Source of the DNA: Ashinkailepas kermadecensis
Lineage: Eukaryota; Arthropoda; Thecostraca; Neolepadidae
Direction of reading: 5' to 3'
Assembly: GCA_034440615.1 (NCBI GenBank)
Contig: JAOTOM010004137.1
Span: 62,001-126,000, forward strand
DNA length: 64,000 nt
Made by a program: the position numbers and the translations under genes. Below the pieces are notes generated by a model. It worked only from the letters and a program-made list of their open reading frames with translations. It did not search any database and had not been told where the DNA came from. This document shows positions 888 to 37,258 of the stretch, piece after piece (positions within the stretch are counted from its first letter, which is position 1; each line of letters begins with the position of its first letter).

Positions 888-1105
888 CTGTGCACGGCGA
901 ACACGCAGCCCTGGTAGACGAGGTCGACGTCGGCGCAGTACCGGCTCTGGTAGAGCTCGCACAGGTCCTGCTGGCACGACGAGGCGAGCGGCCGGGCGGC
1001 GGCCGCGCACGCGGTCAGCTCCTTCAGCATGCCCAGCGCCCGGTACTCCTCACTGAGCGCGCGCACGTCTCGCGCCGGCCAGTCGCAGATGTACTCGCGG
1101 ATCAC
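888..1105 (-). CDS. BTBD7-like protein, coding exon 3 (start of first BTB/POZ domain)
   Basis: The exon encodes 72 codons plus two bases. It reads VIREYICDWPARDVRALSEE at the start and YCADVDLVYQGCVFAVHR at the end. The spacing and residues follow vertebrate BTBD7, where a (R)ELLxGWDVRDVNALVEEY segment precedes a YCTDVDLIFQ...CFPVHR BTB motif (from memory of the family). BTBD7 has two BTB domains and a BACK region and acts in epithelial remodelling; this exon covers the linker and the first beta/alpha elements of BTB-1. The acceptor is TTGTCAG|GTGATC at 1106-1107. The donor is CACAG|GTGGGT, splitting the last Arg codon after two bases. The phase fits exon 2 exactly. The remainder of the gene lies left of the window. 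Family assignment is by eye but strong. Confidence 0.85.
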
Positions 1106-1153
1106 CTGACAACCGAGACACCACTGCGCTCCAGGACCAGATCACCGCAGGAG

Positions 1154-1200
1154 TGTGGTGGTGGTGGTGGTGGTGATGGTGGTGGTGGTGGTGGTGGTGT
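1154..1200. repeat. (GGT)n/(CAC)n trinucleotide tract
   Basis: An almost pure GGT tract with one GAT interruption. It lies about 50 bp upstream (minus strand) of the exon 3 acceptor of the BTBD7-like gene, so in the pre-mRNA it is a (CAC/CAU)n run near the acceptor. Confidence 0.95.
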
Positions 1201-1351
1201 AGTAGTTGGTGTAGTGGTTGGCGCTTTAGCACGCGCCGACTGCCGGGTAATTTTACGCCGATAGCACGCGTGTCAGTGAACTCCCGGATTATCTGCGTGC
1301 ACAGGTGTGAAAGCATCCGTGTTCGTCTGGTAGAATAAATCATACCGTAGT

Positions 1352-1949
1352 ATCACCTTGGTGAAGTGGATCCCTGGATACATCTAGTAGTCAAGGTAAA
1401 CTGGATGCACCTTGATGCAGTTCTGGTGGAAATGTTGGTCGACCTTCGTGTAGACCTGGTGCAGCTACTGGATTAACCTTGGCGTGGTTCTGGGTGCAGT
1501 TCTGGACCAACTTTGGCGTGGTCCTGATGTACATATTAGCCAACTTAAGCGTGGTTCTGGATGCAGTTCTGGGCTCACTGGTGTTGTCCTGATGTACGTA
1601 TTAGGCCACCTTGGTGTGGTACTGGGTGTAGTTATGGGCTCACATTGCCGGGGTCCTGCGCGTAGATATGGGCTCACCTTGACGTGGTCCTGGGTGTAGA
1701 TATGGGCTCACCTTGATGTGGTCCTGGGTGTAGTTGTGGGCTCACCTTGACGTGATCCTGGGTGTAGTTATGGGCTCACCTTGATGTGGTCCTGGGTGTA
1801 GTTATGGGCTTACCTTGACGTGGACCTGGGTGTAGATACGGGCTTACCTTGACGTGGCCCTGGGTGTAGTTGTGGCCCCACCTCGATGTGACCATGTGTG
1901 TAGCTATGGGCTCACCTTGACGTGATCCCGGATGTAGTTACGGACTCAC
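1352..1949 (-). repeat. ~34-bp minisatellite built from the exon 2 splice donor
   Basis: About 17 units of roughly 34 bp, degenerate to the left and regular to the right. Read on the minus strand, most well-preserved units contain CACGTCAAG|GTGAGCCC or a one- or two-base variant, including GTAAGC. The exon 2 donor itself reads CACGCCAAG|GTGAGTCC. The array therefore begins at the real exon/intron border and fills much of intron 2 with donor-like copies. Confidence 0.9.
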
Positions 1950-2040
1950 CTTGGCGTGATCCTGGGTCTTGTGGTGCCGCCGCCGCCGCCCTAATCTCCG
2001 CCGGAGCGTCGCAAAGCCGCTCATTTTCTTCTTGTCACGA
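1950..2040 (-). CDS. BTBD7-like protein, coding exon 2 (basic linker)
   Basis: This 91-bp exon encodes RDKKKMSGFATLRRRLGRRR followed by RHHKTQDHAK. It matches the BTBD7 N-terminal basic region, which in vertebrates contains a DKKK...SGLATLKKKF...DHAKQ pattern (recalled, not searched). The acceptor is GTACACAG|TCGTG at 2041-2042; the donor is GCCAAG|GTGAGT. Exon 1 ends with two bases of a Gly codon that this exon completes, and the exon ends in phase 0, as exon 3 needs. It is too short to be found as a stand-alone open frame. The region is very Arg/Lys-rich and could bind membranes or act as a nuclear signal (inference). Confidence 0.85.
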
Positions 2041-2458
2041 CTGTGTACGTCAGGGCAGATGATTGGTCACGGATGACCGACTACATGTGCTGTGCACGGC
2101 AGATGAGCAACGCGAGGGCAGAGGGCAGAGAGCACAATCGACACACATCGGCCGGGTGTCACCGAAACCGACCGTGGCTCGCTAATACCTGCTATGGGCC
2201 CACGACACAGCTCGGGTGGGTCATGGGAGATCGGTCGGATGCCACAGAAAACATCACATTAGTCAATGTGATCAGTTGAAAAGGGACGTTCTGGACCCAT
2301 TGTCTCTAGCAGAGCCGGTGTTGATTTATTAAGGTGAAAGGATCTGTCACAGGACCAACATGGCCTTACTGACAGACGGATATTTGCCGGTGTAAGGTCG
2401 AAAGTGGTCCGTGTCGCGAGTCACAGCCGCAGCGATGTCCACCGCCGTCGGCACTCAC
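2041..2458 (-). other. Intron 1 of the BTBD7-like gene
   Basis: A 418-bp GT-AG intron bounded by the donor GG|GTGAGT at 2453-2458 and the acceptor TACACAG at 2041-2047. It contains no tandem array, unlike introns on either side. No other feature is seen. Confidence 0.7.
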
Positions 2459-2610
2459 CCGTGGCGCTTCTGGTAGGCGGGCGCCAGCACGCTGCCGCTG
2501 CTGTTGGCCTTGACGTGGTACTGCGGCGGGTAGGGCGCCGCCGCACCTCCGCCCGCCAGCCCCGACGGCACGTGCAGCGACGTGGGCACCGCACTGTGCG
2601 CCTGACCCAT
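2459..2610 (-). CDS. BTBD7-like protein, first coding exon (start codon)
   Basis: The exon encodes 50 residues plus two bases of a Gly codon, starting MGQAHSAVPTSLHVPSG and ending AYQKRHG. The start was chosen because the ATG sits in GCGCC-ATG-G, a good Kozak context. MGxxxS at the N-terminus is a potential N-myristoylation signal, as in the MGANAS start of vertebrate BTBD7 (recalled). The donor GG|GTGAGT is strong and its phase matches exon 2. The 5'UTR likely begins at an acceptor about 38 bp upstream (CCCGCAG|GCGG), so at least one non-coding exon should lie to the right. The residue sequence between the start and exon 2 is low-complexity Ala/Gly/Pro/Tyr and not conserved as far as I can tell. 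Confidence 0.75.
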
Positions 2611-2639
2611 GGCGCCGCTCACCGGCTGACCGACTCAGG

Positions 2640-3056
2640 AGCGTTGCATCGCCGCCTGCGGGCGGGCACGGTGAGCAGTTCAGAGACCACCGCCGCCTGC
2701 GGGCACGGTAGGCAGGTCAGACAGAAGCCGCCGCCGCCCGCGGGCAGGCAGGTCAGACACAGGCCACTGCCGAATGCGCACGGGCACGGTAGGCAGGTCA
2801 GGCAGAGGCCACCGTGCCTGCGGGCAGGCACGGTAGGCAGGTCAGACAGCGGCCACCGCCGTCTGCGGGCGGGCACGGTAGGCAGGTCAGACAGCGGCCA
2901 CCGTCGCCTGCGGGCGGGCACGGTAGGCAGGTCGGACAGCCGCCACCGCCACCTGCGGGTGGGCACGGGGTAGGCAGGTCAGGCAGAGGCCACCGTCGCC
3001 TGCGGGCGGGCACGGTAGGCAGGTCTGACAGCGGCCACCGCCGCCTGCGGGCGGAC
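2640..3056 (-). repeat. ~45-bp minisatellite carrying an acceptor-like motif
   Basis: Roughly nine units, with period near 42-45 bp. On the minus strand each unit carries a pyrimidine-rich segment ending in CCGCCCGCAG|GCGG or a close variant. The unit next to exon 1 provides the probable 3' splice site in front of the start codon (CCCGCAG|GCGGCGATGC). The array therefore multiplies the acceptor-like region of the BTBD7-like gene. Confidence 0.9.
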
Positions 3057-3245
3057 TCTGTTTTCGAATGGGTACAGGCCAGAGGAAAATTTGTCTAATC
3101 CAAAAATATTATACCTGAAGTCTTGAACACACGGAATAAATTGCATTCCATCGTGTTACCTTTTGCGGAAAGATGCAACCTTTCAGGTTAATTAGTTATA
3201 AATGCATGCAGAATTACGGGTAGACAGGTCACTACAAGTGCGACC

Positions 3246-3410
3246 GAGGGGCGACTAGTCAAAAGATAAGATGCTCATCTCCAAACAGAAAGGTTGAAGG
3301 TTCGAGTCCCACCTGTCGCTGCTTTTCGTCCGCGATCAGTTGGCGTGAAACACCGACGAAGCTATGCGTAACCAGAGCCGTTGACGCGTCGTAAAACCAA
3401 TAACGAACAA
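3246..3410 (+). mobile_element. tRNA-derived SINE, family A (diverged copy)
   Basis: The order is a tRNA-like head with GGTTCGAGTCCCACC (B box), a body with CCGCGATCAGTTGGCGTGA, and a tail with TCGTAAAACCAATAACG. It is the same organisation as the better copies at 6793-6951 and 28928-29090. Confidence 0.85.
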
Positions 3411-4297
3411 ATCTTAACATCCCCGTAAGTGGGTTACGTGGGCCACTAATAACCAACAGTCGACGCTATATTTTCTCAGTTATTTCAACAATTTTAGATT
3501 GCCTCTATGGTACACAAAAGACCCAAAAGGATACCGTTCTATGCTTCACAGCTATTGTCTACGATGCTCTCCTTGACCTTCGTCCGGGCTGGGAGCAAGA
3601 GTCACTGACGCCAAAAAGAAATGGTGAATAAAAACAAAACTAAATGCATGCTGAAGGGCACTTTGGCATCCAAATACTCATAACATGAAAAATCAACAGA
3701 TCTGCCATGATAAACGTCCAATAAAAGATTCTTCCTCTAACTACTAGCGAATACCAGTTAATGACAATCATTTTGCAAACCTATTTTACCTGCTGTAAGG
3801 ACTTCAAAGTGTTCTAACATAAGACCATCCGGTGAACAAACTTTGAGGTGGTATGGTAATAAATGAGCATCACTGATCCATATTCAAAAATGCTACTGCA
3901 TGGTAAGAAGGGAAATTACTTCATCCTGATGCAGAAGTAGTTAGGAGGCAAAAATAAACAATGAATTTAATGCAGTACAGTTCTAAATAATGTAATTAGG
4001 AGGATTCCAACATAATACTTGCATGACACCTGTTTTGTGTATGCTCTTTTCAGGTTCATCACAGTTTCATGTCACATGGTAAGGTGGGCATGCAAAAATA
4101 TTTGTTATGGTGGAGGCAAAAATGGATGAATATCTCATACTAGGTGCGAATTAACAATATCAGTAAATTTTTGGGATTTGTACTTTTGTACTTTGCAACA
4201 AAAACAGTTTTAGTTTGGTGCAGTGGCCACCAACATTACACAGATCTGAAACTGAAGGGGATTAACATTAGCTACAATTTAGGAGAAAAGGAAGTCT

Positions 4298-4516
4298 AAA
4301 AAAAAAAGGAAACAAACAAAAAAAGTTTTTTAAAATAAAAAATTTCCAACCCCTTTTTTTTAAAAAAAAAAAAAAATAAAAAAAACTTTTAAAAAAAAAA
4401 AAAAATTAAAACAAAAAAAAACCACAAAAAAAAAAAATTTTGCCACCCCAAAAAAAATTATAAAAAAAAAAACCCCCAAAAATTTGGGAAAAAAAACCCC
4501 CAAAAAAAAAAAAAAA

Positions 4517-4558
<42 letters not shown>

Positions 4559-4582
4559 AAAAAAAAAAATAAAACAAAAAAA
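4298..4582. repeat. Poly-A-dominated homopolymer tract
   Basis: Nearly 300 bp consist of A runs of up to about 40, separated by short runs of T, C or G (CCCC, TTTT, GGG). True poly-A tails and microsatellites do not look like this. A consensus error or collapsed low-quality assembly is likely. Confidence 0.85.
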
Positions 4583-6792
4583 CCAAACCATTACATATTC
4601 AAACACCCAAGCTTTCAGTCAGCCAATTAAATTATAAATGTCATCTATGGAAAGAAGGTGTAACAACACATACATTATGAAAACAACCATACAAACATAC
4701 CTACAACTATATAATTGCTCATTCATGAAAAGTGACCCATAAGCCAAATTTTGATCAGCAATTTGGATAACATGGTGCAATCTGCAGCACCAACTTTGAT
4801 GGCAACCTCCCACTCATGGGTTGGCATATAATACACCATAGAATACCCCAACAACCACTCACTGCATCTGAAAATGTCACAAGAAGTAATGCATTTGCTG
4901 CCTGCCAAAACCTGCTGATCTGTGAAAACAGGCAGCTTAGATGGCTTGTACATTGCAACATATGGGTTACAACTTTATTTGACACAAATCATGCAAAACA
5001 CGCCCAACAAATTTCGTGGCCTTATTTCTTTCCCAAGATAGCTGAATTTTCTCAAGTTGAGAAGTGACCTTTTCAACATTGAGAAAGGAACAAAGTTTTG
5101 TAATGAATGGAACTAAACCCATAACACAGCTCCCCAGCCTGATATTCTGCTGTTGTTGCCTAAGATCACAGATTGCAGGTCAAAATTATAATGATTTAAC
5201 TTCAATTTTATAAACTAAGTAGAACCTGATGGCAACTGGGCTAAATGGTAAGACTGGGAACTTGTTTAAATATGACATCTCAGCAGTGGCATAAGCGAAA
5301 CGAAACCAGCTTAACCAAACATAGCCAAAGTCCATTGGTCTACCCCAGTGATGCATTAGTGGGGTGGGTTAGCAGAATGATGCAAGTTTGATTAGGCTAC
5401 ATTTGGCAGAATAGCATAAGCTTACTCTGGCTAGTCCGGGTAGAATGGCATAAAGTTTGATATAACATGTCGGGCGAACTGCCAATGCTGCATTCTCAGT
5501 ACAGCCTGCCATCACCAAGCATGGACCATGGCAATGTTAAAATAATAGTTTTTCGTCAGGTGCAAGATGTTCAAACGTGTATGGTAGGATGTCGAAATTG
5601 GACATGGAAACTCATTTTGAGCCAATAGTGTACTGATAAGTCCATGCTTTCTGTTTAACTCTGGGGGCACCTACTACAGGGATACCTATGCTAATAATAA
5701 CAATGGAAATACCATGGTATCAACAGATGGCATTGTTTAACAGATCATAGATAATCTCTCTACCTGGATGTGTGTGACGAGATACTTGTGTATCACAATC
5801 TGTAATGGTGAGCACAAGCATGATACCTATTCATGAAATACTCTTAGAAACAAGTCATGGATACTTCTTAAGCACACATCAACAGGCACAATGTCAATAC
5901 TTCCTTCGAAAGGATGTCTATTCAGTGCTCAGAAATGGTATATTCCACCCTATTTCATGAATAATTTATCACTGGAGGGAGGTTGATTCAGCATTTCACT
6001 AGGTGGTGTTTTCAAACCATTTTCTTTATTAACACTAGAGTATGGAGATCTTCATTGCTGCAACTTCCTATCACCATATCAGTTACAAGATTCTGCTCTT
6101 TCATCAAGCAACACAAATTGGACAGAACTTTCATGCTGGCTCTTTGGTGCCAATATCATAATCTTTGCCTTGTTGCATATTTATTGGCTTTGATGAACTT
6201 AGGCCCAATACTAGCCTGGGCAAAGTCCATAGAATAGTCATAGCACATAAAATAAACACAATGCAAAACACAAGACAATTCAGTACATCTGCGAGCATAT
6301 TCCCTGCCTAAACCGGAACAAGTTCCATAAGAAAATGAATACTGATTGGCCAGACTACAAAATGCATATCACTGTTGGCTTTGACATGATTTCATCAGTG
6401 TGATAGTGCCCAGAAGCCAGCTATTGTGCACTACATTCTGAAGCATGCATTGCACATGTGCATACACCATGGATAGTGCACATGCAGCAGTCCATTAATT
6501 GTGCATACCATTTGCATATACCAGCTTGGTGTATGGGTACAGTAAGTAGGCGGTTGGGCAGCTACTGCAGCTTCAATACAAGTTATCCATCACATTAACT
6601 GTGACTTTCACTCAATCTATCTACAAAATATATCTGAGCTACATAATCAATTTAACCTACACATAGTTGTGCATGTCTTACTGCAACATTGTTCTCTAAT
6701 CTTGCATAAATGGGAGTAATCTGCAACACCAACATGTACCATAATCTTCTACCCATGATTATTGAGTAACTTCCCAAATACATATCCTTCTG

Positions 6793-6951
6793 GTTGGTTA
6801 TTGGTTTTACGACACGTCGACCGTTGTGTCATGTAGCGTCGCTAATCTCTCACGCCGATTGGTCGCGGGCGAAGAGTAGCGACAGGTGAGACTCGAACCC
6901 ACAACCTTTCGATTGTGAGACGAGCATCTTACCCCTAGACCACTCGTCCCC
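6793..6951 (-). mobile_element. tRNA-derived SINE, family A, intact with target-site duplication
   Basis: A 159-bp element flanked by the perfect 14-bp direct repeat TACATATCCTTCTG (6779-6792 and 6952-6965). On the minus strand the head reads GGGACGAGTGGTCTAGGGGT and has a B-box-like GGTTCGAGTCTCACC. The body contains CGCGACCAATCGGCGTGAGA and the tail ends TAAAACCAATAACCAACC. It keeps its CpGs although it sits in the CpG-poor block, so it is a young insertion. Confidence 0.95.
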
Positions 6952-6971
6952 TACATATCCTTCTGCTTGAG

Positions 6972-7031
6972 TTAGTTAGTTAGTTATTAGGGCTTTAGGG
7001 CGCATCGACTACATCGGTCATGTAGCGCCCA
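6972..7031 (-). mobile_element. 60-bp tail-only retroposon (family D) with target-site duplication
   Basis: The segment TTAGTTAGTTAGTTATTAGG...CATGTAGCGCCC is flanked by the perfect 15-bp repeat ATCCTTCTGCTTGAG (6957-6971 and 7032-7046). It resembles only the 3' end of family A, so it looks like a severely 5'-truncated copy. The family A SINE at 6793-6951 later landed in the same target, a few bases away. Confidence 0.85.
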
Positions 7032-8164
7032 ATCCTTCTGCTTGAGCACACAGCAAGTACTAGAGCTGCCACAATTAGATCTGCATGCTGAGAGAATATT
7101 GGTAACATTTCCTACTCTTCTTCAGCTGGATGACAAAATTGCTTGATACCATTATAAATTTGCATTGTCAATTTATAATAGCATGGAACTTAAATTTCCA
7201 CAAGCAACGTTCAGTAGAACAGTAGAACAATATCCATAGCATTATTTCATTGGGATCACAGCTCTTTTTTATGGAGCAAAACACTGAATTGTGTGTGAAA
7301 TCTAATCAGGCTTATGCATTATCAGCTTCCATAACCTGGCATTAGCAATCATAAATCAGGTTAGTTCCTATAATTAATGGCTGCTTGTGGGTTGCAACAG
7401 ATGCTTAGGATTGAATGTGTTGATGGTGGTGATTTGTGGCATTAGGCAGCTTCTGTGTTTTTCCTATGTGTGGAGGCTTGTATGCTGATTGCACAGGCAT
7501 TGCCAATGCAACTTAATTAAAATATCAGTGTTGCTATTTAACACCAATATTTTGGTTTGCCCTAACAATGGTCACCAACTTCACTTTCCGATGTTGCACA
7601 AGATGCCAAGCTCCTTTCAAAGAAAGTATGTGGCCTAATATTTTAGAGTACACCAGGCATTTTAGCTCTGGTGGAGACCCCTGTATACTATAAACTGCCA
7701 ATGCATTGACCTATAATTCACCAATAATTAGCATCCATATGTCACAAGTTAGCATTGGATCTGTAATTACATGAAAGTAAGATGGCTCAACCTGTTCCAT
7801 ATTCACATGATTATCCCTAAATCAATTGCAATCTCCTTGTAGCCTCTAAGAACCATGCAAGCTAATCTAGCATCACCTGAAGTGGAATGATTCTTTTAGA
7901 AAATTGGATTAAGTTTGCAAATAATGCTCTCACAAATGACATTATCTCCTGTTGATCACCATACCCAAAACTGGTCACAGTGGCACAATGGACACACATT
8001 AAGCACTGTCATAATGCCAAGAAATACCAAAAATGTCAGTGATGTGACCATGTGATGTCAAGCTTGGTGATCACTAAGCAGGCCTGATATCCACTTGCCC
8101 AGCCTGAGTCAATAAACATAAACAATTATAATATGACAACAATTCTCTCATTTAACTTGATGAC

Positions 8165-8318
8165 AAAGCTTTGGAAGAAACTTTGACTCTTGACCACAAG
8201 ATCGTGGGTTCGAATCCCAGAACTGGCGTGATTACCGAGTTTACCCGCTACCAATCAGCGTGAGAGGTTGGGGATGCTGTATGGCCATCGGTTGGATGCA
8301 TCATAAAATAACCCAAAG
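8165..8318 (+). mobile_element. tRNA-derived SINE, family B, CpG-decayed copy
   Basis: The tRNA-like head includes CTCTTGACCACAAGATCG and GTGGGTTCGAATCCCAGAAC. The body and tail follow family B (compare 52960-53110), but many CpGs of other copies are TpG or CpA here, for example ATCGG to ATCAG and GCGTCG to GCATCA. It is older than the neighbouring 6793-6951 SINE. Confidence 0.85.
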
Positions 8319-13190: not shown

Positions 13191-13200
13191 CGTGTTCTTA

Positions 13201-13912
13201 TGCGCCCTGTATCCGCCCCTGGCACAAGGGTTATGTGCCCTGTATCCGCCCCTGGCACAAGGGACACGTACCCGTCCTTTAGCCGCCTTATGTGCCCTGT
13301 ATCCGCCCCTGGCACAAGGGACACGTACCCGTCCTTTAGCCGCCTTATGTGCCCTGTATCCGCCTCTGGCACAAGGGACACGTACCCGTCCTTTAGCCGC
13401 CTTATGTGCCCTGTATCCGCCCCTGGCACAGGGGACACGTACCCGTCCTTTAGCCACCTTATGTGCCCTGTATCCGCCTCTGGCACAAGGGACACGTACC
13501 CGTCCTTTAGCCGCCTTATGTGCCCTGTATCCGCCCCTGGCACAGGGGACACGTACCCGTCCTTTAGCCGCCTTATGTGCCCTGTATCCGCCTCTGGCAC
13601 AGGGGACACGTACCCGTCCTTTAGCCGCCTTATGTGCCCTGTATCCGCTCCTGGCACAAGGGACACGTACCCGTCCTTCAGCCGCCTTATGTGCCCTGTA
13701 TCCGCCCCTGGCACAAGGGACACGTACCCGTCCTTTAGCCGCCTTATGTGCCCTGTATCCGCCCCTGGCACAAGGGACACGTACCCGTCCTTCAGCCGCC
13801 TTATGTGCCCTGTATCCGCCCCTGGCACAAGGGACACGTACCCGTCCTTTAGCCGCCTTATGTGCCCTGTATCCGCCTCTGGCACAGGGGACACGTACCC
13901 GTCCTTTAGCAC
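13201..13912. repeat. 57-bp frame-preserving minisatellite
   Basis: About 12.5 copies of a 57-bp unit containing GTATCCGCCCCTGGCACAAG and GGACACGTACCCGTCCTTTA. Copies differ by a few substitutions in different combinations (CCCCTGG/CCTCTGG, ACAAGG/ACAGGG). Because 57 is divisible by three and the unit lacks stops in several frames, long open frames of 19-residue repeats exist on both strands. This is a length effect and not evidence of a protein. Confidence 0.97.
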
Positions 13913-18090: not shown

Positions 18091-18117
18091 GACCGCCGGT
18101 ACTGGCCCGGCGCTCAG

Positions 18118-18292
18118 AGGTCTGGGTCCGGGTCCGGTCTGGGTCACGTATGGGTCTGGGTCCGGTCTGGGTCCGGGTCCGGTCTGGGTCCCGTATGGGT
18201 CTGGGTCCGGTCTGAGTCAGGGTCCGGGTCCGGTCCGGGTCTGGGTCCGGTCTGGGTCCGGGTCCGAGTCCGGGTCCGGCTTTTGGTCCGAG
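18118..18292. repeat. GGGTCCGG/GTCTGG minisatellite
   Basis: Repeats of about 6, 12 and 18 bp alternate GGGTCTGG, GGGTCCGG and CGTATGGG. The structure is higher-order and GC-rich. Confidence 0.9.
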
Positions 18293-18931
18293 TGCGGCTC
18301 AGTGATTCATGTTCAGATCCGGGGTTCGGGTAGAGGCTCCAGGTCCAGGAAGAACCTTAGTGCGAGCTGCTGGAAGACGCGCGGCGCGTGTACGCATGGA
18401 TGCGATAGTTTGGATTTACCAGTCGGAGCATAATTCTGATCACACGTGCGGTGAGTGGAGTCATCCCAACGGTTGGTCAGGCACGAGAGAGGAGCCTCAG
18501 AAATTATTGAGAGCGCCCAACAATGCATAGCTGATGAACTAAAACACATTGGATGGGCTGCCCAAGGAACTTACACAGAGCCCATGTTGAAGCCTAAGTA
18601 GTGCTGGCCCGAGGATGCTGTCATGCGAGGAGAACTCGCTTCCGTGTGCTGATGTGATCGTGATAGTTTCCAGTGCGTCTACTGATCTGAGCGTGCTGGT
18701 CTCAGCGGTACGACCATCGCCAGAAACTTCACACGCAAAAGAGTCGATTACTCGGGGCACTTTGATCTGCTTGCGTTAGCGAAAGCTCCAACTGAACTGG
18801 ACTGACCAAAGCTTCAAGTGTTGATCGGAGTGATTTTATTGAGTGTGTTGACCCGAGTGTCTTGATTTGAGTGTTCTAATTTGAGTGCGTTGACATGAAG
18901 CAATGGCTGGAGACCCCGGGTGGGGGGGGAG

Positions 18932-19110: not shown

Positions 19111-21300
19111 GTCGGGGTCCGAACCCCAGGTTACTCCACAAATGTTAATTTGTCATTTTCTCTCCTCAGGCTGAAAATATGGATTGATAATAAACATTTG
19201 GACCCCTGTCTCGGTGAGAGATCTCCAGCCTTGTCTGAAGCCAAAGCACGTTGTTTTGTACCATGAGAGCTGGCCAGTTGCATTGCTCCGCGTCCGAGCG
19301 TGTCGGTGTAACCAACCTCTCCAGATAAAAACTCACCGTACAGGACCTCGCCTCTCCAGATAAAAACTCACCGTACAGGACCTCCTATTAAACGGGCATG
19401 GAGACGATTGGCGGGGCTCATTCTACCGCATAAGGTCTGGAAACTAAAAGGGCTAGCGAAGCTGAAGTTTCACCTTTCGGGGAATACTGCAAAAAGTGAA
19501 AGGGTCCAAATAAAATGGTCAATATAAAATGAAATGAGAGAAATGAAATTGATGGGTCTGGTAAACACGCTAGAATGAATTTGTTAAATTGACGGATGCA
19601 GGTGATACTACCGTAGTGTATATCAATCCAATGAGATCGGCCCTTTTGTAGAACCTTAATCTGATTTGAATTGGTGAGACGTGACGGGATTTTCATTCTG
19701 AACTAAGCTTCTTATTATCGAGGGATCAGTCACTTCGAGCTTGATTTGATATCCCTAGGGCACAGCAACAACGTCGCAAAAATCGCATCTCGTGGTCTGA
19801 TTCAAATCGACAGCGTTAATCTCGTTGGCTGGCTGGTTGATGATAAATGTTGATATGCTTAATGCGACACAACATGAAGCTTGGTGTCATCAGCGAACAA
19901 ACACCAGAACAAAGTTCGGATTTTCGTTTCAATATTCCAGAAAAAATGGAAACTGGAGCACCATTATTTATAGATATACGTGCAATGTCTTTCAAATTAT
20001 ATAGTAGGGTCAAGTAGGAGTCAAGTCGGGTCAAGGAACATTCCCCTTTGCATTCCATAAAACTTGGCGAAGCCCTGGATCACTATGAAAGATGATGAAC
20101 CACAACATTGCAGTTCTGGTTGGCCACCGGGGTCAGAGTTACGGACTGCCGAGCTGGGGCCTATTGTGTCACCGGCCCACGGGGTCAAAATTAGTGTAGT
20201 TTCACAACGGATGAGCCTACAGGATGAATTTTGCCGAATTCATCATTTGGGGAAGCACAACTCTTTTACATATACGAACATGTTTCATGAACATGCCATT
20301 AAATTAGTGTATGCCGTTGGAAGAACAAGCTGTAAAAAATGTAAGTATATAAGTTTTGTGCGTATCACATGCTCAGTTATATTTTGTCTCAATATGCAGT
20401 CATATCAGTGCAGTATATATGGTAGGTGTATCCCGGTAATGGGAATTGGAAGCTTGTCGGGCTGCAGTATCGTCAATTATCTAACGCCAGCCGACAGTTT
20501 CAACTGACGGTCGACGTTTGCAATAGCTCTACCTATCTCGTTTTAGTGAAGCGCAGTGCATTCCTTCATCCAGTGACCAAAACTGTCACCTATTTGTTTT
20601 ATCCGCATGGACTTTATTACTTCAAAGTTCAGGAGTTTTAACTGGAGAAGCTTTATGGAAGCGGCAACGTAAGAAGAACCGCATTTTCCTAGAAGCAAAT
20701 GACCCACGTTTCGTCCGCAGGCATCTTGAAGAAGGCTTGGCCCGAAATGTTTGTGATTTGCTTCTCAGAAAATATAATTTGTCTTACGCTGCCACTTCCA
20801 TACGTCAAAGTTACAGCATATTTAGCAGACATCGGAGTAGATCATTAGCACCGTGGTGAAAGCACACCACGGTCTGGTCCGTCCGACTAGGTATGTCAGA
20901 CTAACTAGGTCTGTCAGATCTATCGTGCTTAACAATAGCCATGCCACATTCAAAGTAGCAAGGATAAAACAAGGCCCAATGAATGAATGACTGGCCGCGC
21001 ATTTTAACATCCCAGATTCTGAAGGCGGGTATCTGAAGGTGTTCAGAGGGCATCTATGAACAATCCGGCTCCCCATTTCTGTCTGCTTCTCACAGACGAC
21101 GCGACTGTCACGCGCGTCGGATCTGAATGGGGGGGGGGACAAACTGACTTTATGAGGCGATTCCAGTCCAAGGTACGAGAAAACTAGAGTCCCATCCGAG
21201 ACGAAAATTGCTCGTATGGAAATCTTCCGGTAGCGAAGCAGCACGGAAGGTAAATAGAGCAAGACATAGGGAAGAAAGTGTGACGTCTTTCCTCTCAGGA
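19111..21300. other. No gene recognised; one short tandem duplication
   Basis: A 35-bp unit with CTCCAGATAAAAACTCACCG occurs twice in tandem at about 19316-19384. The longest open frame (20064-20507, plus) has no motif or exon-like borders. The rest is unremarkable mixed sequence, with nine consecutive G at about 21131. Confidence 0.4.
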
Positions 21301-26972: not shown

Positions 26973-26978
<6 letters not shown>

Positions 26979-28702: not shown

Positions 28703-28844
28703 ATGAGCAACACCATAGCACTGGCCATGTCAGGTCCGCAGCGGCACCATCAGAATGGTCATCGGTGACGCCAATGAGCAACACCATAGCACTGACCATG
28801 TCCGGTCCGCAGCGGCACCATCAGAATGGTCATCGGTGACGCCC
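28703..28844. repeat. Two 71-bp tandem units
   Basis: ATGAGCAACACCATAGCACT begins each unit and GGTCATCGGTGACGCC ends it. The copies differ at only a few positions. Confidence 0.95.
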
Positions 28845-28927
28845 ACCAGCCGGAGCACTTGCCAACTCAGCTTTTGTTTGTGTTGTGCTAAATACTGTAT
28901 GTGAGATGCATCACGAAGCGGGATTGG

Positions 28928-29090
28928 GGACGAGTGGTCTAGGGGTAAGATGCTCGTCTCACAATCGAAATGTTGTGGGTTCGAGTCTCACCTGTCGCTA
29001 CTCTTCGCCCGCGACCAATCGGCGTGAGAGATTGGCGACGCTACATGATTCAACGGTCGACGTGTCGTAAAACCAATAACCAACCAACCA
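28928..29090 (+). mobile_element. tRNA-derived SINE, family A, full copy with target-site duplication
   Basis: A 163-bp element flanked by the perfect 15-bp repeat ACGAAGCGGGATTGG (28913-28927 and 29091-29105). The head has GAGTGGTCTAGGGGTAAGAT and GGTTCGAGTCTCACC. The body has CCCGCGACCAATCGGCGTGA and the tail ends CCAATAACCAACCAACCA. It is the best reference for the family in this window. Confidence 0.95.
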
Positions 29091-29721: not shown

Positions 29722-29962
29722 GAGTGCACAGTCGTTCGCCCGACCGGGTACAAGTATCGAGAGGCATCGGCCAGGTACCGGTACCGAGAGGTACTGGCTG
29801 GGGGCACCGGTACCGAGAGCTATCGGCCGGGTACCGGTACTGAGAGGTATCATCGGCCGGGCACGGGTACCGAGAGGTATTGGCCGGATACCGGTACAGA
29901 GAGGTATTGGCCGGGGGTACCGGTACCGAGAGCTATCGGTCGGGTACCGGTACCAGGCGTAT
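29722..29962. repeat. GGTACCG-rich minisatellite
   Basis: Units of about 26-30 bp contain GGGTACCGGTACCGAGAG and TATCGGCCGG. The GGTACC palindrome recurs in most units. Confidence 0.9.
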
Positions 29963-30194
29963 CGGCACCGAGAGGCGGTACATGTCAAAGGAAATCTCGC
30001 AGGAGTACGTCAGCACCGCGGGTGGCAGCTCACTCAAATTACATAAATTATCGACAAAGCCCAGTCAGCCTGGGGTCCGCGTGCCGCGCACCACCGGACA
30101 CGCACGAACATTGTCTTCTTGCACACTACAAGGCACTGGATTATACAACGCACGCGCGCACACAACAAGAATCGCCTCGCTCTTGACTGGGACG

Positions 30195-30900
30195 ACAGTT
30201 CGCTCTCACCTTGTCCCCGACCGACCCGCCGACGCCGGAGGGCCGCTCGGTCCGGCGGTCGCGGGTCGCGCCCAGCGGCAGGAAACGGAGCCGCCGGCCA
30301 CCGCACGTCGGCGCCGACGCCGGCGTTTCGACGTTTCGGACCGGCGCCGGCGAATTAACGCGGATGCACTGGCCGGCTCATTTCCGCACGTCCCGCGGGC
30401 TCAATTCCGCAGCAGCGGTTAATTCCTGCCGCCGGCCGAGGGACGCGGCACAACAATGCGGCGCGATTGGCGCCGTTTCGGCGGCGATTAGCGCGCCAAC
30501 CGACGCGCCGGCCGTCGGCTCCCACGAGACGAGTTTTGAACGTGCCCGCCTAGGCGGCGGCGCCAATTAAGTGGCGCCGCGCCGGCCGGTCGACATTGCC
30601 GGTTGGCGGCGTCGTCGACGGCCAGTTGAAGGCAACGACAAGATCGTCTGCCGGCGAGCCGGCAGAGAGCCGACGACGGCAGGGCGACGCGGAATGACCT
30701 GACGAGCACGAGGACCGGCCGAAACCGGCGGGAACCGGCGGCACAAGGCACCGGCCGGAAACGGACGAAACGAACCGAACCGGCGGGAAACCGACGGAAT
30801 GGCGGGGAACTGACGGAATGGCGGGAAGCCGAGGGAAGCAGAAGCAGCCGAATATTGCTCGAATCGGTCGCCGCCGATGACGAGCACGAATACCGACTGC
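30195..30900. promoter_or_regulatory. CpG-rich island 3' of the Caudal gene
   Basis: Very GC-rich, CpG-rich sequence with isolated AT-rich cores such as GAATTAACG, GTTAATTCC, CGATTAGCG and CCAATTAAG, typical of homeodomain binding. No exon structure is evident. It lies about 0.5 kb beyond the Caudal stop codon and could be a downstream enhancer or another gene's promoter (inference). Confidence 0.35.
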
Positions 30901-31430
30901 GGTGAAGATTCCGCCGGCGGAGATCAGCTACATAATGCCTTCAAAGGGCGCCACTGAATATCAGCTCAGGGGGAGAGGGGGCGTGGAGTAGAATGCAGAG
31001 CACACGCACAGACAACGTCATGCTGGAGTGCAAGTGCAGAGACAATAACTAACGGACGAAACGAGCCCGTCACGAAACGAGCGCCGACTCGATCAGTGGT
31101 GGCCGCAATCCACAGAGTCGGCGACGCCACCCTGGCTGAGATTCGCGCGCCTGCCGGCAACGGCCGGCTATGTCCACTGTACAGGTCTAGACGATTAACG
31201 GGCTGCCCATCAACACTACTTCAACCGGGCCAATATCACGCGCGGGCCTCGGCCGACCGTCGGCCACGTCCTGTCCGAAGACGCCGCGCCGCCGACCGGC
31301 ACTCGTCCCTCCAGTCCAACGCAACACTCAACGACGCGCTCACCCTCGGGTGTCCCGTGCGTCCCGCGTGCTGGCGCGACCACAAGGGCGACGGCGGTCA
31401 CTCCACGGAGCGTCCAACACGGCGAGCCTC

Positions 31431-31691
31431 CTAAAACGCCGGCTCGCCGTCGCGCGGCTCGCTCTTGGTGACGACGTGCTGGTGCTGCTGCTGGTGCTGC
31501 TGGTGCTGCTGATGCGGCTGCTGGTGCTGCTGGTGCGGCTGCGGCGCCATCTCGGCGTGCATGCCGACACCGGGCGCCATGGCGTGCCGGGGGAACCGGC
31601 CGGCGTCCACCTGGCCGGCGTCCACCGCCACCGGCGCCGTCGGGCCGGTCGACTGTCGGGTGAAGGCCGCCGGCAGCAGACCGTGCACCCC
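31431..31691 (-). CDS. cad: Caudal/Cdx homeobox protein, C-terminal exon
   Basis: The exon gives 86 residues and TAG. It starts GVHGLLPAAFTRQSTGPT, continues with a Pro/Ala/Met segment, then a Gln/His-rich run of repeated PHQQHQQ, and ends VVTKSEPRDGEPAF. The acceptor is CCGCCGGCAG|GGGGTG in phase 0, which matches the phase-0 donor at 33550. Gln/His-rich low-complexity C-terminal regions are common in arthropod Caudal proteins and are probable activation regions. A SINE sits a few tens of bases upstream of the acceptor and supplies part of the CT-rich tract. No nearby polyadenylation signal was seen; the nearest AATAAA on this strand is near 29660. Confidence 0.85.
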   Translation of the reverse strand, partial: GVHGLLPAAFTRQSTGPTAPVAVDAGQVDAGRFPRHAMAPGVGMHAEMAPQPHQQHQQPHQQHQQHQQQHQHVVTKSEPRDGEPAF

Positions 31692-31721
31692 CTGCCGGCG
31701 GACACGCAGCGGTCAGCAGAG

Positions 31722-31905
31722 AAGAAGAGCAAGAAGAACCGTGCGTTCTTTTACGACGCATTCAACCGCTAGGTCATTTAGTGTCGCCAGCCTCTCACCC
31801 CGATTGGTCGCGGGTGGACTCAGTAATGCCGTCGGTTGTGAGATTCGAACCCACAATCTTGCGATCAAGAGTCCGACGCCCTACCAACTGAGCTACCGTG
31901 GCCCC
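31722..31905 (-). mobile_element. tRNA-Lys-like SINE (family B) next to the last Caudal acceptor
   Basis: On the minus strand the head reads GGTAGCTCAGTTGGTAGGGC and GGACTCTTGATC, then GTGGGTTCGAATCTCAC, resembling tRNA-Lys(CTT). The body has CCCGCGACCAATCGGGGTGA and the tail ends in a GTTCTT-rich stretch. A 15-bp direct repeat with one mismatch, CTCTRCTGACCGCTG, flanks it (31707-31721 and 31906-31920). The insertion lies 31 bp upstream of the last Caudal exon. Confidence 0.85.
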
Positions 31906-31920
31906 CAGCGGTCAGTAGAG

Positions 31921-32380
31921 GCGGGGCGCACCAGGCATGAGCCAAGCTGGTCAGGAGACGCGGAGCGCACCAGGCAGGGGTCAAGCCGGTCACGAGACGC
32001 GGGGCCCACCAGGCAGGAGTCAAGCTGGTAACAAGACGCGGGGCGCACCAGGCAGGAGACGCGGGGCGCACCAGGCAGGGGTCGAGCCGGTCACGAAACG
32101 CGGGACGCACCAGGCAGGAGTCAAGCTAGTCAGGAGAGGCGGGGCGCACCAGGCAGGAGTCAAGCCGGTCAGGAGAGGCGGGGCGCACCAGACAGGAGTC
32201 AAGCCGGTCAGGAGAGGCTGGGCGCACCAGGCAGGAGTCAAGCCGGTCAGGAGAGGCGGGGCGCACCAGACAGGAGTCAAGCCGGTCAGGAGAGGCTGGG
32301 CGCACCAGGCAGGGGTCAAGCCGGTCACGAGACGCGGGACGCACCAGGCAGGAGCCAAGTCGGTCGGGAAACGGCGAGAC
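31921..32380. repeat. ~39-bp minisatellite upstream of the last Caudal exon
   Basis: About 12 units contain AGGCGGGGCGCACCAGGCAG and GAGTCAAGCCGGTCAGGA. Looser copies run on to about 32800. On the minus strand each unit has the CTCTCCTGACCGGCTTG motif, which resembles CTCTGCTGACCGCTGCG just in front of the real acceptor. Confidence 0.9.
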
Positions 32381-32861
32381 ACACCTGCAAGGAGAAGCTG
32401 GATGCAGCGGTCAGGAGATGGGAAACCAGACCGGCTAGGGGAAGGGAGACACACCTGTCAGGATACGCTGAGACGCACCACTCAGGAGACATGTAGACAG
32501 GGAGGAACGTCTGTCCAGAGACGTGGATGCACATCGGTCAGGAGGTTGGAAATGAGACTGGCCAGGAGAAGCGAAGACATGTCGTCAGGAAATTCCGAGA
32601 CACACCACTCAGGACACAGACTGCTTGAGAGACGGGAGTCCATTTCAAGAGACGCGGAGGCACACGGGCAGGAGACGTGTGGACACTGATCAGGAGGGAA
32701 ACTGGTCATGGGACATAATAGTCTAGTGGTCAGGAGGCGTGGGGACACGCTAGAAGACGGGGAATCACACCGATCATGAGATGTGGAGACACACTGATCA
32801 GGAGATGCATGTATTTGCACGCCACCACGCTGTTCTAGCAGGCTCACTGAACATGCGCTTT

Positions 32862-32925
32862 GTTTGTTTATTGATTGCTTACTACAGCTTAGGGGGCATC
32901 GACTACCAAGGCCATTTTGCACCAA
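32862..32925 (-). mobile_element. Tail-only retroposon (family D)
   Basis: TTGTTTATTGATTGCTTACT...GGGGGCATCGACTACCAAGGCC matches the family D order seen at 39101-39154, more diverged. No clear target duplication. Confidence 0.6.
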
Positions 32926-33296
32926 TGAACATCCACTTTCCTGCTCCTACGATGCTCTGACAGGCTAACTGAACTTCTCCGTGAGTATTATGGTCAGCTT
33001 AAATCCACTCGCCTACATGACACCGTAATAGTTAAAATTGTTGCATGGCCGCTTAGCTACATGAGAAAGAACTGCAACTGATATGAATGGACACCATGCA
33101 ATGACAGATGCCTGTTGTAGCTGCACCGGTAAGAGGTGGAACTGCTGCGATCAGAGAGCCAGCTGCCATGGTGCGAAGCTGGACTATTGACGGTGAGACT
33201 CCAGGGAGTCGCCTGGTGCTCGTGCTGTCGATCTCCTCGCTCACTGGCGGCTCAATTCATGGGGATCTTTCACGAGGAAATCAACGCAAGTCTGCG

Positions 33297-33549
33297 AATT
33301 GAACGTCCACCTGCGGGTGAATGTAGCCGAATTGAATGTCCACCTGCGGGTGGGTGGGTGGGAGTGATCGAATTTAACGTTCACCTGCGGGTGGGAGTGG
33401 TCGAATTGAATGTTCACCTGCAGGTGGGAGTGGTCGAATTGAATGTCCACCTGCGGGTGGGAGTGGCGGAATTGAATGTTTACATGCGGGTGGGAGTGAC
33501 CGAATTAAATGTTCACCTGCAGGTGGGAGTGGCCGAATTGAATGTTCAC
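33297..33549 (-). repeat. 33-bp minisatellite built from the second homeobox exon donor
   Basis: Eight units, the eighth lying partly in the exon. On the minus strand each reads CACTCCCACCTGCAG|GTGAAC or a close variant (CCGCAG|GTGGAC, TGCAT|GTAAAC). The last unit contains the true exon end CATCTGCAG|GTGAAC. The 33-bp period keeps reading frame, so use of the next donor would add 11 residues without a shift; a stop (TAA) appears in the third unit in that frame. Confidence 0.95.
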
Positions 33550-33711
33550 CTGCAGATGGGAGTGACCGAGGCCGTTCATTTGGATGTCGGGCGCCGGCTG
33601 GGCCTGCTGCTGGATGTCTATCATCTGCGACATCTGCCGCTTCGCCGTCTCTTCCATCCGGCGTTTTTGCTTGCGCTCCTTGGCGCGCCGGTTCTGGAAC
33701 CAGATCTTCAC
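33550..33711 (-). CDS. cad: Caudal/Cdx homeobox protein, homeodomain helix 3 exon
   Basis: The exon encodes 54 residues. It begins VKIWFQNRRAKERKQKRRME, which is recognition helix 3 of a Caudal/Cdx homeodomain: V45, W48, F49, Q50, N51, A54, K55, E56 and R57. The IWFQNRRAKERK string is diagnostic for Cad/Cdx. It continues with a Gln/Met-rich stretch (MIDIQQQAQPAPDIQMNG). The acceptor CGCCCGCAG|GTGAAG and donor CTGCAG|GTGAAC are both phase 0, matching the exons on either side. The donor lies inside an eight-copy minisatellite, so alternative donor choice is possible. Confidence 0.95.
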
Positions 33712-34159
33712 CTGCGGGCGACAGCGGCAGCTCAATCAACAGGACGCGGATGGTCAGACATGAGGCGAAGGAGGAACACGTGGTTGGCTGGACTGCAGGA
33801 AGCATTGGCAAACAGGGGACAGAGTGTTGTGTGAAGTAAGGTAGGCAAGCAAACAATTGCGGCAAATAGTAAGTTAAATCATCGCTTTGGGTGGACGTAG
33901 CCATTTGACGAGCGCTTCTTCATGGTGAGCTAATTATTAATCTGACAATTCCTAGTACTTCAGCTTAGCCTTGGAGATGCTGTGGCAGGTGCTGTGAATT
34001 TGTATCCACACGAATTGGAAGGAAATTTGTCTTCCCGCTGCCATCTCCCTACTTCCCTCATCTGGATGGGGAAGTATGGTGGAATGTTTTGAAGCTGGTC
34101 GTCATATCGACAAGTCAGTCATATCAGTAGTTCGTTCATTCGGTGGGCATCAGTGAAAA

Positions 34160-34551
<392 letters not shown>

Positions 34552-34977
34552 AGAAAACCGATATGCCTTGAGTCTCAAATAAGATGCAACGTAAGTGACA
34601 TTGTCACGACCTGCTATGCTGGGTGTTGTAATATTGCAATATGCAATATTACGAATAGCATGCCAAAAATAGCAAAAATAGCGAATAGCATGCCAAAAAT
34701 CTTTGAAATGTGGATTTTATCATCAAGTTGTTCAATGTGACAAGCTTTGCTGGCTGGAATGTTGAAATGTGCCTCACAGGACGCATGATGCTTGTCATCA
34801 TTAGGTTTTCATAAATTTTGTGTTTATTAAAACATCGAAGTAATATCAACAGAAAGACCGCTTGAAAGACCGGCATATATTCCGAGTGCGGCCCAAAAGC
34901 CTGCCGGTCCTGACCGGGCTTTCGGTCCTTGCATTTGCCACCTCCAGTCACGATTCATGTGCATCTCAAGTTGCATG

Positions 34978-35497
34978 CTGAGTTCCGCATGTGGTGGGCG
35001 GAGGCGGCGGGGCCATGTCGGGTTCCGCATGTGGTGGGCGGAGGCGGCGGGGCCATGTCGTGTTCCGCCTGTGGTGGGCGGAGGCGGTAGGGTAATGTTG
35101 AGTTCTGCATGTGGTGGGCGGAGGCGGCAGGGTCATGCTGAGTTCCGCCTGTGGTGGGCGGAGGCGGCAGGGCCATGTCGGGTTCCGCCTGTGGTGGGCG
35201 GAGGCGGCGGGGCCATGTTGAGTTCCGCCTGTGGTGGGCGGAGGCGGCGGGGCCATGTCGGGTTCCGCCTGTGGTGGGCGGAGGCGGCGGGGCCATGTCG
35301 GGTTCCGCATGTGGTGGGCGGAGGCGGCGGGGCCATGTTGAGTTCCGCATGTGGTGGGCGGAGGCGGCGGGGCCATGTCGGGTTCCGCCTGTGGTGGGCG
35401 GAGGCGGCGGGGCCATGTCGGGTTCCGCCTGTGGTGGGCGGAGGCGGCGGGGCCATGTCGTGTCCCGCCTGTGGTGGGCGGAGGCGGCAGGGTCGCG
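34978..35497. repeat. 40-bp GC-rich minisatellite in the Caudal homeodomain intron
   Basis: Thirteen units of GTTCCGCCTGTGGTGGGCGG followed by AGGCGGCGGGGCCATGTCGG. On the minus strand each unit contains a C-rich tract ending CCACCACAG|GCGG or CCACCACATGCGG. The first form is acceptor-like in transcriptional orientation. Confidence 0.97.
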
Positions 35498-35499
35498 TG

Positions 35500-35900
35500 G
35501 TCCGGTCAGCCACCGGCGCGGCGGCGGCGGCGCTGCCGGTCGGGCCGGCCGCCGCGCGTCCTTGGCTCTGTTAGCGCCCGCCATTAACACCCGGGTACCG
35601 GCGACCCCACGTACGAGCGCGGCCGCGCCGCTCCCGCCGGAATGTCGCGTCCGGCGCGGCGCTGATTCAGCCGCCGGAGTCGGCGCCGCCGACGCCCGTC
35701 GCGCTCGCGCTGGACGCGCCATTGATCGGACGACGATTTATTGTGCTCGGACGTTGTCGGCGACATTCCTGGCGCCGCGCGTCGGCGGCGGCGGTTCCGA
35801 CGCGTGGCCAGATGTGTCGGCGACCGTAGCGTCTCACACGGCCACCGGCCGACTCCGGACGCGTGCGGAACACATGCTCCGCATTTTACTGCCGTCCTTG
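35500..35900. promoter_or_regulatory. CpG-rich island inside the Caudal intron
   Basis: GC-rich sequence contains the Cdx/AbdB-type site TTTATTG at 35737-35743, CCATTAACA near 35580 and CATTGATCGG near 35719. It resembles the other islands in the window and has no exon support. Candidate intronic enhancer. Confidence 0.35.
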
Positions 35901-36186
35901 TCGACATTCCCGGCCGTCGGACATGCATATGGCGCCCGGCCGCGCACTCCAGAAGTCGCCCTGCTGAACGCATGGACCGTGGGTGAACTGTGCGCTATTG
36001 TCAGCGTGCCAGCGCGCCTTGTGGAATCCAGTGGCGGAGCTTAATGCTCGCTTCGAAGGGTCAGCAGATGTAGTACCATATAATAAAGCTATCAAAGCTG
36101 CAACGTTTTCCAGGAAGTCCACGGTTTTGGACGTATCCGGGTTCCATGGGTATTTACTACAGCTACTTGGTTGCCCCTTCATCGCT

Positions 36187-36262
36187 GGTTGGTTGGTTGG
36201 TTATTGGTTTTTACGACACGTCGACCGTTGAGTCATGTAGCGTCGCCAATCTCTCACGCCGA
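36187..36262 (-). mobile_element. 5'-truncated SINE (family A tail) with target-site duplication
   Basis: Only the last 76 bp of the family remain, flanked by the perfect 14-bp repeat GCCCCTTCATCGCT (36173-36186 and 36263-36276). The loss is from the 5' end, as in target-primed reverse transcription. Confidence 0.95.
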
Positions 36263-36794
36263 GCCCCTTCATCGCTAGGCTCCGAGAAAATTGCAATTAC
36301 TTGTTTAGGCACAAGCTTAGTTGGGATAATTTCCGTTCCCTTCCCACTCCCCATCCTACCCTCCGATGCGCCGGTGTAGGTAGCCCAATACCGTCATTTG
36401 ACACTTTGATGAGTTGAGTGCATTTATTACATCTTCGTACTAGATAGATGTGTTCGGCTTAGGGCATACACGGAAATGTCGCTTCAGTGAGCAAAGCATG
36501 CAATACGCATTTTGGGAGCCCACCTATTTTCCACGGAGGTTCAAACAAGCTGCATTTATCTGTCGTAATGCGGAGATATGGGTTTGCGGGAAATGGGCCA
36601 GAGCAAATACAATTTTCCGTCATTTCAGCCGAACGTAGGAGGGCGCGAACGATCGTCGAGCAGTTCGAACGCCATTGCGAAGTCCTTTTCTTCTTTGCAA
36701 CGTCCGTGGGACAAGCTAAGAAATAATTATAAGTGGGCCTTTTTCCTCATCATGCTCCCACGTCTATGGCCGTCTATAGCCAAGCAACCACATC

Positions 36795-36926
36795 ATTCAC
36801 CTGTCGGTCGGTGAGGCACCAAACCACCAGCTACCTGTCGGTCTGTGAGGAATCAAACCACCCACCTGTCTGTCCGTGAGGAACGAAACCATCCACCTTC
36901 GGTATCTGAGGAGCCAAGCCACCCAC
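36795..36926 (-). repeat. ~31-bp minisatellite built from the first homeobox exon donor
   Basis: After the real donor ACAG|GTGGGT come four more units of 30-34 bp. Three of them end again in GACAG followed by GTGGGT, GTAGCT or GTGAAT. One has GAAG|GTGGAT. The units copy the last bases of the exon (CTCACAGACCGACAG) plus the start of the intron. Confidence 0.93.
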
Positions 36927-37072
36927 CTGTCGGTCTGTGAGACCAAGGATGCGCGACAACTCCAGCTTGCGCTTGATGGTGATGTAGTTGTTGTATCGGA
37001 ACTCCTTCTCCAGCTCCAGGCGCTGTCCGTCGCTGTACACCACTCTGTACTTGTCCTTGGTGCGTGTCTTGC
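36927..37072 (-). CDS. cad: Caudal/Cdx homeobox protein, homeodomain helices 1-2 exon
   Basis: A 146-bp exon encodes (G)[22 protein letters not shown] and [20 protein letters not shown]. With KDKYRVVY at positions 1-8 and Q44 as the last residue, this is the Caudal/Cdx homeodomain start; the preceding GKTRT is also Caudal-typical. Caudal binds TTTATKG DNA and drives posterior and gut development (family knowledge). The acceptor GTTCACAG|GCAAG needs one base from the upstream exon; the donor ACAG|GTGGGT is phase 0. G11 and the N23-N24 pair differ from the commonest residues I remember. The WMKK-type hexapeptide is not in this exon. Confidence 0.95.
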
Positions 37073-37089
37073 CTGTGAACAGAACTCCA

Positions 37090-37258
37090 CGTCAGCTGAC
37101 GTCCAGTGATGCCATAGCCACACACCAGAGCGTTATCGGATATCCACCGTCAGCTGACGTCCAGTGATGCCATAGCCACACACCAGAGCGTTATCGGATA
37201 TCCACCGTCAGCTGACGTCCAGTGATGTCATAGCCACACACCAGAGCGCTACCGGATG
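37090..37258. repeat. 58-bp tandem repeat just upstream of the homeobox exon
   Basis: Three near-identical units start CGTCAGCTGACGTCCAGTGA and end CAGAGCGTTATCGGATATCC. The array begins 17 bp from the exon's acceptor, without copying the acceptor itself. It contains the palindrome GTCAGCTGAC and TGACGTCC. Confidence 0.97.

Follow-up and report, generated by a model that had tools for sequence, protein, structure and literature searches.

Tandem repeats whose unit spans an exon–intron boundary have been described in amphioxus as "mirages", in the genes for Adh3, the globins BflGb6 and BflGb9, troponin C, and PGBD5, and the accounts of them report regular splicing, an unstable copy number, and a proposed role in intron gain (PMC3087553, PMC3902484). 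In human genes lying in segmental duplications, tandem units of approximately 30 bp have been described at exon–intron boundaries (PMC2812944), and in the potato RNA-dependent RNA polymerase (RdRp) gene an intron is described as gained through the tandem duplication of an AGGT-bearing segment (PMC4974935). The prawn lectin gene (Rlec) has 30/33-bp tandem units inside coding exon 2, where they are translated (PMC7536079); a worm minisatellite near alternative exons is a different matter (PMC4039745). Here, we examined a 64,000-nt stretch of the genome of the barnacle Ashinkailepas kermadecensis (assembly GCA_034440615.1, contig JAOTOM010004137.1, positions 62,001 to 126,000; hereafter, the window), which contains minus-strand portions of two genes with short exons, a Cdx/caudal gene and a BTBD7-like gene. 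The donor sites of three of these exons lie inside minisatellites.

These three barnacle arrays have the anatomy of mirages: the repeat unit holds the boundary, many of the units carry AG/GT signals, and, as in amphioxus, the genes are otherwise ordinary. They extend the known kind to another phylum, the host being an arthropod. The barnacle units measure 31–34 bp, compared with 10–72 bp in amphioxus Adh3, 150–160 bp in the globins, and 60 and 108 bp in PGBD5, and all three arrays are at donors, whereas the amphioxus mirages occur at both types of boundary. Regular splicing has been reported for amphioxus, whereas the barnacle arrays are known from DNA alone. The human boundary repeats take the form of number differences between recent paralogues and of novel introns; in contrast, the barnacle introns are old and none is new. 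As in potato RdRp, the barnacle duplication crosses a boundary together with its splice signals, but the array-bearing introns sit where the Cdx and BTBD7 homologues predict. In other words, the joined exons align at the array-bearing joins to the Cdx proteins of Amphibalanus and Pollicipes and to what we take to be the BTBD7 sequence, with no extra intron required, and no new intron between duplicated AGGT copies, the mark of intron gain, was found in the barnacle arrays. With prawn Rlec they share a crustacean host and units of approximately 30 bp; boundary copies of the Rlec unit are not described in the available part of PMC7536079. No mirage from a barnacle or another arthropod was found among the matches listed in the literature searched, which was covered by title and the start of the abstract, with subscription journals outside it.

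Splice donors inside tandem arrays

In each array, the 31–34-bp unit consists of the last 15–23 nt of the exon, the donor, and approximately 11–16 nt of intron, and its copies follow one another down the intron, giving 5, 8, and 13 listed donor positions for arrays 1, 2, and 3, respectively, including the authentic one. The arrays, all on the minus strand, were delimited with Tandem Repeats Finder (TRF). Array 1 (positions 36798–36941) has a 31-bp unit made of a 15-nt exon end (CTCACAGACCGACAG) and, with the GT donor, approximately 16 nt of intron in total; the Cdx exon at 36927–37072 ends in CTCACAGACCGACAG/GTGGGT (the slash marks the junction; authentic donor at 36926), followed by four downstream copies spaced 30–34 bp. 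In array 2 (33295–33569), with a 33-bp unit of approximately 20 nt of exon end and approximately 13 nt of intron including the donor, the Cdx exon at 33550–33711 ends in CACTCCCATCTGCAG/GTGAACATT (authentic donor at 33549), and seven copies follow, mostly 33 bp apart. Array 3 (1476–1967), with a 34-bp unit of 18–23 nt of exon end and 11–16 nt of intron including the donor, has the authentic AAG/GTGAGT at 1949, where exon 2 of the BTBD7-like gene ends (ACCCAGGATCACGCCAAG/GTGAGTCCG), and continues with 12 listed downstream copies, mostly 34 bp apart (e.g., ACCCAGGATCACGTCAAG/GTGAGCCCA).

A recurrence comparison of the three arrays showed that the likeness to the exon ends 15 to 23 nt inside it; therefore, the junction falls roughly one half to two thirds of the way along the unit (approximately 0.48, 0.61, and 0.53–0.68 from its exon-side start in arrays 1, 2, and 3). 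In an alignment anchored at the donor, the exon-side copy shared 74–90% identity with 17 of the 23 downstream copies listed; the remaining six had identities of 0.56 to 0.73, one being out of register. With the authentic donors included, AG/GT is kept at the junction in 5/5, 7/8, and 11/13 units of arrays 1, 2, and 3. Donors were scored with a generic matrix for animal splice sites; the authentic donor of array 3 scores 12.3, above all 12 listed copies (maximum 11.2), and the copies at the far end are weak. An earlier note on this DNA had placed donor arrays at 1950, 33550, and 36927, and had suggested checking genome-wide whether repeat units include the junction: the three arrays do enter the exon by 15–23 nt, and at all three donors the exon end, the donor, and the intron start are repeated together. 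Its statement that the units are unrelated in sequence also held, with best ungapped identities between units of 0.41–0.50 (P = 0.07–0.39 against shuffles) and no detectable kinship among the three.

The boundaries themselves were set by homology and reading phase, which gave ten junctions on the minus strand: five donors (2458.5, 1949.5, 887.5, 36926.5, and 33549.5) and five acceptors (2040.5, 1105.5, 37072.5, 33711.5, and 31691.5). Donor 33549.5 is fixed by the Cdx proteins of Amphibalanus and Pollicipes, both of which read HLQ/GVHGL, and the junction pair 36926.5/33711.5 by the uninterrupted homeodomain LTDRQ/VKIWF. Donor 1949.5 is fixed by DHAK/V against DHAKQ in what we take to be the BTBD7 sequence. 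The Cdx boundaries are thus known from two barnacle proteins, independently of the arrays, and that of BTBD7-like exon 2 less firmly, from phase and the presumed BTBD7 letters. Because the exons are known independently by homology, it is the exon end that gave rise to the copies and not the reverse. An array encloses donors 36926.5, 33549.5, and 1949.5 (three of the five) but none of the five acceptors; the nearest TRF array to donors 887.5 and 2458.5 is at least 267 bp away, and a 45-bp array recognized by eye reaches to 197 bp of donor 2458.5.

The array 2 unit (CACCCGCAG/GTGAACATT) also resembles the acceptor of the exon at 33550–33711 (CGCCCGCAG/GTGAAGATC, 33702–33720), and 24 bases at this acceptor recur nearby with 17/24 matches. 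The unit might act as a donor or an acceptor at one AG/GT, or the likeness might be due to chance.

Association with authentic donors and possible origins

Minisatellites (period of at least 9) make up 13.0% of the window, and for this reason the proximity of arrays to exons does not exceed chance. Five of the ten junctions have some tandem repeat no more than 60 bp away, against 2.22 expected (P = 0.10), and whole-array circular shifts gave P = 0.09–0.19 across all six settings; proximity was therefore rejected as a test statistic. The rule that the earlier note had proposed, with repeats touching or within 20–60 bp of exon borders in general, is consequently not supported, either on proximity or on the acceptors, none of the five fixed by homology being inside an array. 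However, only one unit in each array is original, and the fair count is therefore the number of original units that span a junction. When each of the 45 arrays was collapsed to one original unit and placed at random, the three spanned junctions compared with 0.23 expected (P = 0.0018). This result was stable across TRF cut-offs of 30 to 150 (0.15–0.29 expected, P = 0.0034 to 0.0005) and under local jitter of 0.5 to 5 kb (P = 0.0027 to 0.0009). A recurrence count made without TRF placed 3/10 junctions in repeats against 12.5% of positions at 19/24 matches, and 4/10 against 16.1% at 17/24 matches, but it shares the weakness of proximity because copies are counted. Non-exonic donor-like sites from the two strands, with each array and strand counted once, served as decoys: 7/121 of those scoring at least 3.3 (5.8%) lie in a non-mirage array, compared with 3/5 authentic donors (one-sided Fisher P = 0.0034), as do 2/36 of those scoring at least 5 (P = 0.0086).

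We consider it likely that the three arrays are mirage minisatellites, each of which started as a seed duplication across a 5′ splice site, expanded by slippage or unequal exchange, and was tolerated by the gene. A first short duplication over the donor could arise through replication slippage or unequal exchange; beginning in the exon end and finishing in the intron, this seed would then grow through the usual turnover of minisatellites. Such a duplication would be tolerated because the exon stays complete and retains a working donor in the exon-side copy, and the rest is intron. If a duplication instead fell within the body of an exon or spanned an acceptor, it would tend to alter the mRNA, and since those at acceptors would more often add sequence to it, donor arrays should survive more often. 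Tolerance would account for the finding that three donors and no acceptors are affected.

Several points weigh against this account. The difference between donors and acceptors (3/5 versus 0/5) is not significant on its own (P = 0.083), and neither is the simple count of junctions inside a minisatellite (3/10, with 1.29 expected from circular shifts; P = 0.17). The strongest decoys offer only a weak contrast: 2/14 of those scoring at least 5.8 (P = 0.084) and 0/7 of those scoring at least 7 (P = 0.046) lie in non-mirage arrays, compared with the same 3/5. The score of the authentic donor of array 2 (7.4) is equalled by three of its seven copies, which tolerance alone does not explain. That the exon-side donor is the one used in this species is inferred from orthologues that possibly have no array. 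Moreover, there are only three events in two genes of one window, picked after the fact, and all P values are optimistic because two of the three arrays belong to the same gene and because the choice of window followed its reading.

As a rival explanation for why the arrays sit at donors, a minisatellite-rich genome may simply cover some splice sites by chance, with arrays bordering exons because selection removes those inside exons. This proposal addresses the position of the arrays and not their nature, and the 13% coverage, the whole-array shifts, and the selection of a single window for its striking look all speak for it; the count of original units (P of approximately 0.002, robust to cut-off and local density) and the low frequency of the ≥3.3 decoys in arrays speak against it, and we regard it as possible without favoring it. 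We give about the same tentative credence to the proposal that working donors in barnacles, unlike donor-like sequence, are birthplaces of minisatellites, and that many genes carry strings of spare donors. The status of donors as mutational hotspots is suggested but not proven by the three events. Of the earlier note's interpretation, the part supported is that three units unrelated in sequence span donors, beyond what random seeding gives; an extension to acceptors is not supported. A process tied to transcription or splicing, with R-loops, polymerase paused at 5′ splice sites, or U1-bound nascent RNA causing true donors, and not donor-like sequence, to be broken and recopied into arrays, would fit the excess of authentic donors over decoys, the unrelated unit sequences, and the placement of the junction within the unit. 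Nothing in this analysis shows R-loops or breaks, and with three events and a weak contrast to the strongest decoys, neutral tolerance combined with chance is simpler; we consider this version unlikely.

Repeated donors might instead have been selected, for example, for stronger U1 recruitment or regulated isoforms. Both Cdx arrays have an open reading frame through the first extra unit, the next donor of array 2 equals the authentic one in score, and use of the next donor would add 11 residues (VNIQFGHSHLQ) to the exon at 33550–33711 or 10 residues to that at 36927–37072. However, the Cdx proteins of Amphibalanus and Pollicipes have no such insert, the Cdx homeodomain would be expected to be destroyed by an insert, translation continued beyond the authentic donor of array 3 gives VSP and then a stop, and the far-end donors of that array are weak. 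Selection for repeated donors is therefore highly improbable, and growth from a tolerated seed duplication remains our preferred explanation.

The two genes and the other repeats of the window

The Cdx/caudal exon at 36927–37072 encodes the first part of the homeobox, ending in LGLTDRQ, and was identified by tblastn, Pfam, and PDB matches; it shared 98% identity with Pollicipes Cdx over 50 amino acids (tblastn), and solved structures of CDX1/CDX2 were the top six PDB matches of the Cdx/caudal query. The second part of the homeobox (VKIWFQNRRAKERKQ...NGLGHSHLQ) lies in the exon at 33550–33711, supported by tblastn and the barnacle proteins, and the terminal coding exon (GVHGLLPAAF...KSEPRDGEPAF and a stop codon; tblastn) is at 31431–31691, with an acceptor free of arrays; all three are on the minus strand. 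The joined exons matched the Pfam Homeodomain (7.8e−20). The best matches of the joined three-exon protein were an Amphibalanus amphitrite protein (65% identity, 99% query coverage), labelled in the database as an NK1-related factor yet carrying a Cdx homeobox, and the caudal-like protein of Pollicipes pollicipes (64% identity, 100% query coverage). Among the best 120 of 2,559 matches, these two were well ahead of the rest (E-values of 2.8e−62 versus 1.5e−28). Exon 1 of Cdx was not found in the window by tblastn with the Pollicipes N-terminus; either the first intron exceeds 27 kb (37073–64000) or exon 1 has diverged, and the Amphibalanus Cdx model likewise differs at its N-terminus. A long (AG)n/(AT)n microsatellite (34160–34548) lies in the intron separating the two homeobox exons.

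The second gene begins, on the minus strand, with a coding exon at 2459–2610 (MGQAHSAVPTS...YQKRHG, ATG at 2610), which matched protein P0002 (53% over 58 amino acids, 4e−9) and whose donor is not repeated. Coding exon 2 (1950–2040, RDKKKMSGFATLRRR...TQDHAK) was placed by its agreement in phase with exons 1 and 3. Coding exon 3 (888–1105, VIREYICDWPARD...GCVFAVHR), both borders of which are outside arrays, shared 93% identity over 73 amino acids with P0001, a protein encoded on a 74.8-kb contig that diverges from the exon at both borders. The joined exons 2 and 3 match a stretch that we take to be human BTBD7 without gaps over 101 amino acids (48%). Because Pfam and PDB searches gave the gene no name, the label "BTBD7-like" rests on this presumed sequence.

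Three acceptor-side arrays claimed in the earlier note fared less well than the donor arrays. Upstream of acceptor 37072.5, an intron array of three 58-bp units (37086–37257, minus strand, TRF) does come to within 13.5 bp of the acceptor, but the acceptor is not part of its unit. The array claimed at 2650 corresponds to a 45-bp GC-rich array located 5′ of the BTBD7-like ATG on the minus strand (2655–3054; TRF 2746–3054 plus imperfect copies to 2655), in which most units carry CCCGCAG/G. The sequence at 2655.5 does recur within it with 20/24 matches, but no protein evidence supports use of the acceptor, and the array is a possible, unproven candidate for an acceptor array in the 5′ untranslated region. 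A home-made branch-site and pyrimidine test for acceptors was passed by 0/45 arrays; uncalibrated on true acceptors and passing almost nothing, it says little, so the 2655 array is unproven rather than excluded. No array adjoins acceptor 31691.5, the third that had been claimed (as 31692), where the nearest repeat, at a distance of 65.5 bp within the exon, consists of two copies of a 15-mer; a large 39-bp array at 31910 lies past a tRNA-like match (31832–31898) relative to the Cdx terminal exon. Acceptor 1105.5 has a (GTG)n microsatellite nearby, at a distance of 49.5 bp.

The suggestion that other arrays with splice-like cores mark unseen exons found no support. One of the 42 non-mirage consensus units has a donor score of at least 5, against 1.2 expected from shuffled units, and the best donor scores of the six arrays named were −6.3 (21722), 1.7 (34982), 0.9 (38768), 4.6 (39403), −5.8 (62871), and 0.8 (63311), with shuffle P values ranging from 0.10 to 0.91. 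The single unit above the threshold belongs to an array that the earlier note does not name, two exact copies of a 35-bp repeat at 19316–19384 (minus-strand ACG/GTGAGT, score 6.1, P = 0.03) and is therefore what chance predicts; no coding exon was recognized beside it by eye, and it could mark a non-coding 5′ exon of the left-end gene or be due to chance. A six-frame Pfam scan of 37074–64000 yielded no domain above the cut-off and only a sub-threshold Lamprin match, which appeared weakly in all three plus frames of an array of 13 copies of the 10-bp GACTGGGCTG at 49888–50020 and is probably an effect of composition. In the minus frames of 3100–31000 (excluding 18099–18499), the only two matches, to TrAA12 and NFLD, both fell below the threshold. 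Three tRNA-like matches (Rfam tRNA, 30.8–36.1 bits) at 6884–6944, 28933–28993, and 31832–31898, the third separating the Cdx terminal exon from the 39-bp array, are possibly tRNA-derived short interspersed nuclear elements. An array of twelve 57-bp units at 13198–13910 (96% matches) is open in two plus and two minus frames over approximately 250–330 codons and is probably a young array and not a gene.

Implications of mirages in a barnacle

If arrays of this kind occur genome-wide, mirages would be a repeated outcome in distant animals. They would also allow direct tests of how a donor is chosen among near-identical neighbors and of a contribution of boundary duplications to intron gain. If it is true that working donors give birth to minisatellites, mirages would reflect a process general to animals rather than an oddity of amphioxus, and they would steadily supply alternative donors and new introns. 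In Cdx, a developmental regulator, one exon is followed by eight candidate donors, four of which score equally, and this amounts to a natural experiment in splice-site choice.

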